From positions 31,199,577 to 31,263,576 of the forward strand of contig CM066913.1 of the NCBI GenBank assembly GCA_033964015.1: a stretch of 64,000 nt of DNA, read 5' to 3'. This document shows, piece after piece, positions 20,401-23,233 of this stretch. A model generated the notes under the pieces. That model did no database searches and was not told where the DNA came from. It saw only the letters and a list, made by a program, of their open reading frames with translations. This DNA comes from Scolanthus callimorphus (Eukaryota; Cnidaria; Anthozoa; Actiniaria; Edwardsiidae). A program made the position numbers and the translations under genes. Position 1 is the stretch's first letter, and every line of letters begins with the position of its first letter.

Positions 20401-23233
20401 CGCAAGTATCTGATTGGCTCATAGGCTCACATACGGATTGTACTGAAAGACAACGCAGAAAAAAAGCCGCCAAACTCCACAAAGAGACAACGGCCGTGGT
20501 CGTGTGTTACCAGACGTTCGCACACTGTCCACTAGTTGCGCGTGCTGTCCGTGGTTTCCGAGTGCATGTTCTCGCTGATTAATGTATTCCCTTGTCCACT
20601 AGTTCCACACGCTGTCCGTGGTTTCCGAATGCATGTTCTCGCTGATTAATGTATTCCCCTGTCCACTAGTTGCGCGTGCTGTCCGTGGTTTCCGAGTGCA
20701 TGTTCTCGCTGATTAATGTATTCCCTTGTCCACTAGTTCCACACGCTGTCCGTGGTTTCCGAATGCATGTTCTCGCTGATTAATGTATTCCCCTGTCCAC
20801 TAGTTGCGCGTGCTGTCCGTGGTTTCCGAGTGCATGTTCTCGCTGATTAATGTATTCCCTTGTCCACTAGTTCCACACGCTGTCCGTGGTTTCCGAATGC
20901 ATGTTCTCGCTGATTAATGTATTCCCCTGTCCACTAGTTGCGCGTGCTGTCCGTGGTTTCCGAGTGCATGTTCTCGCTGATTAATGTATTCCCTTGTCCA
21001 CTAGTTCCACACGCTGTCCGTGGTTTCCGAATGCATGTTCTCGCTGATTAATGTATTCCCCTGTCCACTAGTTGCGCGTGCTGTCCGTGGTTTCCGAGTG
21101 CATGTTCTCGCTGATTAATGTATTCCCTTGTCCACTAGTTCCACACGCTGTCCGTGGTTTCCGAATGCATGTTCTCGCTGATTAATGTATTCCCCTGTCC
21201 ACTAGTTGCGCGTGCTGTCCGTGGTTTCCGAGTGCATGTTCTCGCTGATTAATGTATTCCGTTGTCCACTTGTTCTGCACGCTGTTCGTGGTTTCCGTCC
21301 ATGTTCTCGCTGATTAATGTATTCCGTTGTCCACTAGTTCCACACGCTGTCCGTGGTTTCCGAATGCATGTTCTCACTGATTAATGTATTCCCTAGTCCA
21401 CTAGTTCCGCACGCTGTCCGTGGTTTCCGAATGCATGTTCTCGCTGATTAATGTATTCCCTTGTCCACTAGTTCCGCACGCTGTCCGTGGTTTCCGAGTC
21501 CATGTTCTCGCTGATTAATGTATTCCCCTGTCCACTAGTTCTGCACGCTGTTCGTGGTTTCCGAGTCCATGTTCTCGCTGATTAATGTATTCCCTTGTCC
21601 ACTAGTTGCGCGCGCTGTCCGTGGTTTCCGAGTCCATGTTCTCGCTGATTAATGTATTCCCTTGTCCACTACTTCCGCACGCTGTTCGTGGTTTCCGAAT
21701 GCATGTTCTCGCTGATTAATGTACTCCCCTGTCCACTAGTTCCGCACGCTGTCCGTGGTTTCCGAATGCATGTTCTCGTTGATTAATGTATTCCCCTGTC
21801 CACTAGTTCCGCACGCTGTCCGTGGTTTCCGAATGCATGTTCTCGCTGATTAATGTATTCCCTTGTCCACTAGTTGCGCGCGCTGTCCGTGGTTTCCGAG
21901 TCCATGTTCTCGCTGATTAATGTATTCCCTTGTCCACTAGTTGCGCGCGCTGTCCGTGGTTTCCGAGTCCATGTTCTCGCTGATTAATGTATTCCCTTGT
22001 CCACTACTTCCGCACGCTGTTCGTGGTTTCCGAATGCTGTTCTCGCTGATTAATGTACTCCCCTGTCCACTAGTTCCGCACGCTGTCCGTGGTTTCCGAA
22101 TGCATGTTCTCGTTGATTAATGTATTCCCCTGTCCACTAGTTCCGCACGCTGTCCGTGGTTTCCGAATGCATGTTCTCGCTGATTAATGTATTCCCTTGT
22201 CCACTAGTTCCACACTCTGTCCGTGGTTTCCGAATGCATGTTCTCGCTGATTAATGTATTCCGTTGTCCACTAGTTCCGCACGCTGTTCGTGGTTTCCAA
22301 GTCCATGTTCTCGCTGATTAATGTATTCCGGTTTCCTTCTCCTCTAGTTCCGCACGCTGTCCGTGGTTTCAGAGTGCATGTTCTCGCTGATTAATGGCGA
22401 TGACATGTACATGACATTCAAGGAGATGCACGATCGATCCACGGCTGTTTGGATCTTCAGCAAAGTGTACTTATACGTGTTCATCTCGCTCTTCATCTAC
22501 GTGGTGCTCAGTTTGTTCATCGGTATCATCAGCGACACATACGAGAGAATCAAGGTATGAGAGTAAGAGAGTATGTGAAGGGAAGTTGGAGCCTCTTTTG
22601 GAGAGCGTCTCGAAAGCGACCTAGAAACGTATCGTATCCTCGTGAGAAACGTAACTTTTTCAAACTTGAATCAATGCGAAAAGCAGGGGCGTAGCCAGGA
22701 ATTTTGTTTTTTTGAGGGGGCAATAGTCAAAACATGGGACGAAAATTTTCAAATTTCCTCCAGCAAATACAGTAAATGTATGGGAAATCTCCCAAGAAGG
22801 GGGGGGGGGGGCGCGGCCCCCGGCTACGCCCCTGAAAAGTGTCTAAGGTCTACGCTCAAATGCAAGCAGCTGTAAAACGCGACCGTCTGGCCAGAAGCAT
22901 TTTCAGTAATAAAGGAGATGAGGTTACGAAGAACTATGATGCACACTTTTTTCAGCACTTCTGTTTATTTGTGTATTGCTACAGCTGAAGTTTGATTGAG
23001 GCCACGTGTCTTCCATGGGGAGATTATGGGCCATAGGGCCCTTTTGCGAGTAACGTTTTCTCAATACGCTTTGTGTTGTTGCATTTCAGGATTGGGGTCA
23101 TCCCCCATGTACGAAACTCGAGCGCTTCGTCCACGGTCCTAATTGCCAGCGGTGCGCCACTGAATACAGGACGGAAGATAACGAGGAGGGTTCGGGAACC
23201 GCGTCCGACGACCTTAGCTCATCCATACAGTGA
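17308..23233 (+). CDS. MCOLN (TRPML family): Mucolipin (TRPML) channel, last four exons, 5' part not found
   Basis: Four exons (17308-17411, 18654-18776, 22348-22554, 23090-23233) join in phase 0 at each boundary and encode the C-terminal 190 or so residues of a TRPML cation channel. These are TM4, TM5 with the FCGWIVLGPYH signature, the pore helix and selectivity filter SLINGDDM, TM6 ending SDTYERIK, and a 47-residue cytosolic tail. The family forms tetrameric Ca2+-permeable channels of late endosomes and lysosomes. The N-terminal half (TM1, the large luminal loop, TM2-TM3, roughly the first 400 residues of human MCOLN1) was not recognised upstream. It may lie in repeats, in the N gap or outside the window. 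The first exon carries a 2-base frame break. Which of the vertebrate MCOLN1/2/3 it corresponds to cannot be assigned and probably does not apply. Confidence 0.9.
17925..18200 (-). repeat. tRNA-like B box beside a G-rich minisatellite
   Basis: On the minus strand GTGGGTTCGATTCCCGCTGG contains the pol III B-box consensus GGTTCGATTCC, suggesting a tRNA-derived SINE. Next to it (about 17976-18200) six units of about 33-45 bases, each built on ACCATTTGACTTTTGAGGAG followed by a variable G run, form a minisatellite. The proline-rich minus ORF (156 residues) is its translation. No complete tRNA cloverleaf was seen. Confidence 0.6.
18654..18776 (+). CDS. MCOLN (TRPML family): Mucolipin exon: TM5
   Basis: CGCCGCCAG|ACT opens and CCCAAG|GTAACA closes a 123-base, 41-codon exon. 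The translation TLLVTLKASAPSVLRF is followed by a hydrophobic segment and FMFCGWIVLGPYHPK. This is close to the TRPML TM5 block (LPSVMRF...YLGYCFCGWIVLGPYH). Both boundaries are phase 0, in register with the pore exon 3.57 kb downstream. Confidence 0.93.
18925..19846. repeat. About 149-bp tandem repeat in the mucolipin intron
   Basis: Six units share CCATGTGAGCCAATCAGATC, CCTAGTGCAGTGAATTGGCT, TCTGTCGCGACATGTCT and TGCATTCAAAATATCGAGTG, at a spacing of 149-151 bases. A degenerate further unit resumes at 20323 after an inserted MITE. A diverged solitary relative of the CTAGTGCAGT...GTCGCGAC block lies at 16813-16840. Three in-frame ORFs of about 63 residues are repeat translations. Confidence 0.95.
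19847..20322. mobile_element. MITE with TACAG...CTGTA ends inserted in the satellite
   Basis: The left end (TACAG then AAAAACCCGCATAAAAGAAC) is inverted at the right end (GTTCTTTTATGCGGGTTTTT then ACTGTA). The flanking sequence on both sides belongs to the 149-bp repeat, so insertion came after amplification. The interior has a second hairpin around CAGGCTGATTTTGC. A related end (GTTCTTATATGCGGGTATTT, then ACTGTA) sits at 61060-61088. Confidence 0.8.
20524..22347 (+). repeat. 67-bp minisatellite made of the mucolipin pore-exon splice acceptor
   Basis: About 27 head-to-tail units of 67 bases (starts at 20536, 20603, 20670 and so on) run up to the exon at 22348. Each unit consists of TTCCGCACGCTGTCCGTGGT, TTCCGAATGCATGTTCTCGC, TGATTAATG, then TATTCCCTTGTCCACTAG. 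The first 49 bases equal the start of the pore exon apart from one or two substitutions. The last 18 equal a degenerate version of the intron end with its AG. The first half of the array alternates two variants (TTGCGCGTG/GAGTGC and TTCCACACG/GAATGC), giving a 134-bp dimer. A few units carry small deletions. The unit length is not a multiple of three. Confidence 0.97.
22348..22554 (+). CDS. MCOLN (TRPML family): Mucolipin exon: pore, selectivity filter and TM6
   Basis: TTCCTTCTCCTCTAG|TTC opens and ATCAAG|GTATGA closes a 207-base, 69-codon exon. It encodes FRTLSVVSECMFSLINGDDM (pore helix and the NGDD filter acidic pair), an extracellular/luminal link, and the TM6 block YLYVFISLFIYVVLSLFIG ending SDTYERIK. 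The first 49 bases are what has been amplified into the upstream minisatellite. The true acceptor differs from the array copies by a longer pyrimidine run (GGTTTCCTTCTCCTCTAG). Confidence 0.95.
22684..22834. mobile_element. MITE with CAGGGGCGTAGCC ends
   Basis: CAGGGGCGTAGCC on the left and GGCTACGCCCCTG on the right are perfect inverted ends of a 151-base element with a G run inside. It lies in the last mucolipin intron (22555-23089). Confidence 0.9.
23090..23233 (+). CDS. MCOLN (TRPML family): Mucolipin last exon: C-terminal tail
   Basis: GCATTTCAG|GAT opens 47 codons and the stop TGA (23231-23233). The tail begins DWGHPPCTKLERFVHGPNCQ, corresponding by position to the cytosolic LxxFIxxC segment of other TRPMLs, and ends acidic and Ser-rich (TEDNEEGSGTASDDLSSSIQ). 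Phase 0 matches the preceding exon. No canonical AATAAA was picked out in the next 400 bases. Confidence 0.85.
   Translation, partial: DWGHPPCTKLERFVHGPNCQRCATEYRTEDNEEGSGTASDDLSSSIQ

Follow-up and report, generated by a model that had tools for sequence, protein, structure and literature searches.

Minisatellite-like repeats that extend over intron/exon boundaries were described in amphioxus by Ebner et al. 2010 under the name of 'mirages' (PMC3087553). They are reported from Adh3, troponin C, the globins BflGb6 and BflGb9, and PGBD5 (PMC3087553, PMC3902484), the PGBD5 mirage being added, and troponin C cited, by the latter source (PMC3902484). Mirage units range from 10-160 bp in length (PMC3087553). 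According to the same two sources, splice signals are present in many of the copies, copy number differs between haplotypes (6 and 3 in BflGb6), and the copies are homogenised internally with the exemption of the edge copy (PMC3087553, PMC3902484). RT-PCR suggested that regular splicing is undisturbed by these repeats (PMC3087553), and somatic instability has been reported for the Adh3 mirage of amphioxus. Two further systems share some of these properties. Tandem duplication provides splice signals in one described route of intron gain (PMC2891723, PMC2812944), and the polyubiquitin gene UBC possesses an array of dual-specific splice sites, located in tandem at the boundaries of coding units that are stochastically spliced (PMC10809524).

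The array analysed here is found in a 64,000-nt stretch of Scolanthus callimorphus DNA, referred to as the window, and its pattern resembles that of the mirages. It consists of minisatellite-like tandem duplicates of an intron end and the adjoining part of an exon, and its unit of 67 bp lies inside the 10-160 bp range (PMC3087553). Splice signals are kept in many but not all copies: AG is retained in 24 of 27 copies in the window and in 3 of the 4 decoys of a second version on contig C64. The two versions differ in length (27 versus 4 copies), a haplotype difference if they are alleles as we infer, and inner blocks of the array are identical, as in concerted evolution, with the boundary copy excluded. 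Mirages are known from amphioxus, a cephalochordate, whereas the present array belongs to an anthozoan and comprises 27 copies. Unlike amphioxus mirages, it exchanges the real and decoy acceptor types between versions. The array differs from intron gain by tandem duplication in that no novel intron position appears to be created and the acceptor is copied without a good donor; in contrast to the coding units of UBC, the present units shift the reading frame, again without a good donor. The initial annotation was aware of no precedent for exactly this arrangement, a statement that the amphioxus reports contradict (PMC3087553, PMC3902484). No junction-spanning case outside amphioxus was found in one open-access library, among the matches listed.

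The host gene encodes a mucolipin. The protein sequence of exon 22348-22554, the pore and TM6 exon, begins FRTLSVVSECMFSLINGDDMYM... and finds matches in mucolipin-3, -2 and -1, whose structures are known, with E=1.9e-25 for mucolipin-3 chain 6aye_A. Homologues were compared using a gapped protein joined from the C64 exons. The closest among the matches listed is from Nematostella vectensis (84.0% identity over a 194-residue core), followed among those matches by Actinia (78.5%), Actinostola (77.0%) and the named corals (72-75%). By sequence comparison, the array-bearing mucolipin gene is anthozoan, and amphioxus, suggested as the host by the mirage literature, was rejected on these homologues. 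No relative turned up when viral contigs were scanned with the protein of the pore exon. The host intron is in phase 0 and also contains a 149-bp array of 6.2 copies at 18924-19847, identified using Tandem Repeats Finder (TRF), and 31-nt inverted repeats at 19847-19877 and 20292-20322. In the 698-nt intron of C64, TRF finds no 149-bp array, but short related fragments do align.

Table 1. Features of the array-bearing mucolipin locus, in window coordinates.
Feature	Position	Strand	Identified by
TM5 exon of the mucolipin gene, ending ..GPYHPK; donor GTAACA, phase 0	18654-18776	+	
Host intron, 3571 nt (C64: 698 nt)	18777-22347	+	
67-bp minisatellite, 27 copies, ending in a 24-nt spacer before the real exon	20526-22347	+	TRF and acceptor parse
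Array copies 2-11, five identical two-unit blocks of 134 bp	20603-21272	+	
Spacer bearing the real acceptor, tattccggtttccttctcctctag	22324-22347	+	
Real pore/TM6 exon, 69 residues; donor GTATGA	22348-22554	+	
Last exon, with stop codon	23090-23233	+	Reading frame alone

In the window, TRF identifies the minisatellite at 20526-22396 with a period of 67, 27.9 copies and 91% matches. Parsing by acceptors gives 27 array copies (20526-22347) and the real junction at 22347/22348, in agreement with the roughly 27 units of 67 bp initially proposed. In each unit, 18 intron nucleotides are followed by a copy of the opening 49 nt of the pore exon. Spacings between array copies (n=26) are 67 nt in 24 cases, 65 nt in one and 66 nt in one, and the last array copy begins 73 nt upstream of the real exon. 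Identity of the exon part with the beginning of the real exon is 91.8-95.9% across 25 copies, a range that omits copies 12 and 23, whose exon parts are 2 and 1 nt short of the full 49 nt. This likeness is not due to chance, as the best ungapped match to the 49-nt exon start outside the array, within the window, reaches only 25/49. The array runs straight into the real exon, and its origin from the gene's own splice junction, claimed in the initial annotation, is supported. The ladder of AG acceptors described there is likewise supported, with the correction that AG is lost in copies 12, 18 and 23. A further correction is that the 18 intron nt of the units do not reproduce the final 18 bases of the intron in the window. 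Beyond the final array copy comes the 24-nt spacer of the real junction, and only about the last 11 of its bases align with the array type. In addition to the identical two-unit blocks of copies 2-11, copies 17-20 are repeated nearly unchanged as copies 22-25. A dispersed repeat family was considered and rejected: the first 177 array bases gave 15 DNA matches in the animal's own genome (597 Mb, 302 contigs), 13 at the window locus and 2 at C64:421898-422203, in a search that skipped very common words and scored the best candidates alone, and from which rarity is not to be inferred.

Contig C64 is colinear with window 16544-64000 (about 47 kb), in blocks of at least 300 bases at no less than 88% identity that range from 90.0 to 98.7%, and is therefore likely to be the other haplotype of the window locus. 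Its shorter intron contains 4 array copies and the real junction, compared with 27 copies in the window. The full pore exon is found at exactly two places in the assembly, the window locus and C64; two further pore-exon matches belong to a second mucolipin, with 64% identity on C64 and 78% over residues 29-69 on the window contig, C3. The real exons of the two versions group together, both carrying TCA where all 27 window copies and all 4 C64 array copies carry TCC, and window copy 12 and C64 copy 2 have one variant in common. The shared variant and the grouping of the real exons indicate that the array was already present before the two versions diverged, and that its edge is exempt from homogenisation.

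Several other features were encountered near the array. The second mucolipin is encoded on the other strand, immediately beyond the window (C3:31263001-31273000 and C64:470001-485000). Its matches are interrupted at the equivalent residue (GPYNPK / FRDTT), and thus the intron position appears to be shared with the array-bearing gene. In TRF runs over about 15 kb of C64 and 10 kb of C3, no junction array was found in this intron, where the listed repeats are limited to a 14-bp triple repeat and a G run. The C3 copy of this gene shows a frame change inside the pore exon, and the C64 copy shows none. Within the window, a 128-bp array of about 11 copies (10593-12032) is probably a dispersed repeat, as relatives are located at C64:472716-473497. 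A 130-bp unit is present in two copies at 47621-47883, where the C64 alignment overlaps as if one copy were present on C64. An ORF at 56876-57283 on the plus strand contains the final part of a P53 DNA-binding domain (PF00870, E=2.2e-7), placing a p53-family gene nearby, and a cysteine-rich ORF at 9687-9920 on the minus strand gives a weak VWC match (PF00093, E=0.023), below the curated cut-off.

The status of the two versions depends on the left side of the window, where a 100-N gap is located at 16353-16452. C64 carries the mucolipin 5' exons, but none of these turned up in the window to the left of this gap, where no plus-strand block of at least 300 bases matches 95 kb of C64, except for the 128-bp repeat family. 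Both observations would fit C64 being a diverged paralogous duplicate, the two arrays then marking two loci and not two alleles. Such a duplication is very unlikely, given about 47 kb of colinearity in blocks of 90.0-98.7% identity, the presence of the second mucolipin further along both contigs, and the exactly two full exon copies in the assembly. The 5' exons not found there and the lack of a long left-side match suggest that the scaffold join at the gap is wrong or incomplete. This gap, 4.1 kb upstream of the array, would also fit production of the array or of its 27 copies by long-read misassembly, as would small indels on the window contig, namely a 2-nt shift in an upstream exon and the frame slip in the second mucolipin of C3. 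Such an origin is highly unlikely: the same array type is found on C64, where it has flanks of its own and a variant copy in common with the window, and the copies are diverged and block-structured. Being found on two contigs, the array type is not an artefact of one contig, while the exact copy number of 27 may be. The shifted mucolipin exon (17308-17411) has 2 extra bases relative to C64 and represents either a genuine null allele or a mistake in the assembly; because of this frameshift and the 5' exons not found left of the gap, the window copy of the gene may be misassembled or non-functional.

Branch points, pyrimidines and donors were scored by simple motif counts, with no trained splice model. 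In the window, the real acceptor ggtttccttctcctctag (CCTCTAG) has pyrimidines at 14 of 16 positions and the array copies at 11-13 of 16. On C64 the real acceptor tattccctgtccactag (CCACTAG) is of array type with 12 of 16, whereas the outermost decoy ctaattcattcccttgtcctctag (CCTCTAG) reaches 14 of 16 and has a branch-point motif CTAAT at -21; by these counts the outermost decoy looks the strongest acceptor of C64. The sequence types of real and decoy acceptors are thus swapped between the versions. The contrast between a CCTCTAG real site and CCACTAG array copies, pointed out in the initial annotation, holds in the window and is reversed on C64, and the accompanying idea that selection keeps the true acceptor dominant fails, since the real site of C64 is of array type and poorer than its outermost decoy. 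Scoring of each unit, also called for there, identified branch-point-like yTnAy motifs, CTGAT or TTGAT at -25 and TTAAT at -21, in all but one of the 27 window copies. Each of these 26 copies receives its motifs from the exon-derived bases of its upstream neighbour, as does the real exon in both versions.

Translation from the TM5 exon into each window acceptor meets a stop after 42-180 nt in all 27 copies, and a stop follows 4 of 4 decoys on C64; the reading frame stays open at the real site only. The proposal that decoy use would give a stop before the selectivity filter is thereby borne out for each of the 27 upstream copies. Predicted decoy exons are 280, 347, 414 nt and upwards in the window and 271, 338, 405 and 472 nt on C64, compared with 207 nt for the real exon, and 26 of the 27 window copies would yield exons of at least 347 nt.

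Sequence variation among the copies was compared between the two parts of the unit. Averaged across 27 array units drawn from the two versions, diversity amounts to 0.067 for the intron part and 0.066 for the exon part, with 0.048, 0.083 and 0.071 at codon positions 1, 2 and 3 of the latter; these units exclude the copy at the left edge of the window, the three shortened ones and both real exons. The 14 distinct changes of the exon part from the real exon comprise 6 synonymous and 8 nonsynonymous ones, with 6 at third positions; the synonymous share of 6/14 is a mild excess over the 0.25 expected at random, in small numbers. Coding constraint on the copies, considered as a candidate, is not visible in the diversity, and no clear constraint is recognised since the exon and intron halves are equally variable. 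As to origin, exon GATTAATG and intron ACTAATTC (C64) have TAAT in common, four bases that are not significant alone. The first duplication may have joined these two segments at the TAAT microhomology to give the 67-bp unit; the sequences are consistent with a microhomology-mediated event, and either junction could be ancestral. The unit would then have expanded by unequal exchange or multi-unit duplication.

The array is probably close to neutral and a by-product of unequal exchange. Its decoys are predicted to be outcompeted by the last acceptor, as this one is nearest to the donor of the pore exon. The copied exon end would supply the branch-point-like CTGAT/TTAAT, so that nearly all copies, and the real exon as well, are proposed to use an exon-derived branch point. 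Exon definition would select the acceptor giving the 207-nt exon, as 26 of 27 window copies give exons longer than 300 nt. In human data, exon definition favours the sites closest across the exon, and smaller exons are preferred in the choice of donors; among competing 3' sites at least 20 nt apart the upstream one is preferred overall, a preference that exon definition merely lessens (PMC9225289). Leakage is therefore expected, above all on C64, where the outermost decoy looks the strongest acceptor. Leftover mis-splicing would bear a stop and probably be degraded. The AG of 24 of 27 decoys is allowed by neutrality and would also fit a use, while the mild synonymous excess counts mildly against the neutral reading.

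Uses for the copies were weighed against near neutrality. The copies could serve as 48-nt cassette exons (AG..ATTAAT/GTATTC, phase 0), each adding a 16-residue in-frame segment of the pore helix, for which the divisibility of 48 by 3 and the phase 0 of the intron would be suitable. Their donor AAT/GTATTC agrees with 5 of 9 consensus positions, however, where two of the gene's real donors reach 7 and 8 (the TM5 donor being left out), and adjacent copies would be separated by an intron of 19 nt. Of 1897 homologues, the best 120 include no protein in which the pore-helix motif occurs twice, with 86 matching it once and 34 giving no match; cassette use is extremely improbable. The array might otherwise act as a copy-number rheostat, in which array acceptors used at some rate would lead to a stop and likely decay, and a longer array to less mucolipin. 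Splice signals are abundant (AG in 24, branch-point-like motifs in 26 and stops in 27 of 27 copies) and copy number differs between the versions, 27 and 4, which speaks in favour of this reading. Against it stand the exons of at least 347 nt that 26 of 27 window copies would produce, the equal variability of exon and intron parts, and the normal splicing suggested by RT-PCR for amphioxus mirages (PMC3087553), and it is considered quite improbable. Very doubtful is its heritable, length-coded form, in which each copy would be a working poison acceptor and the 27- and 4-copy alleles would differ in the amount of lysosomal mucolipin.

This array extends the mirage phenomenon from amphioxus to an anthozoan, and junction-spanning minisatellites may therefore be a general by-product of tandem duplication and not a lancelet oddity. 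The two versions provide a natural experiment in which near-identical acceptors compete, 4 in one version and 27 in the other, and in which the strongest-looking acceptor is the true site in the window version and the outermost decoy in the C64 version. With this contrast, the choice among many equal 3' splice sites becomes directly testable.
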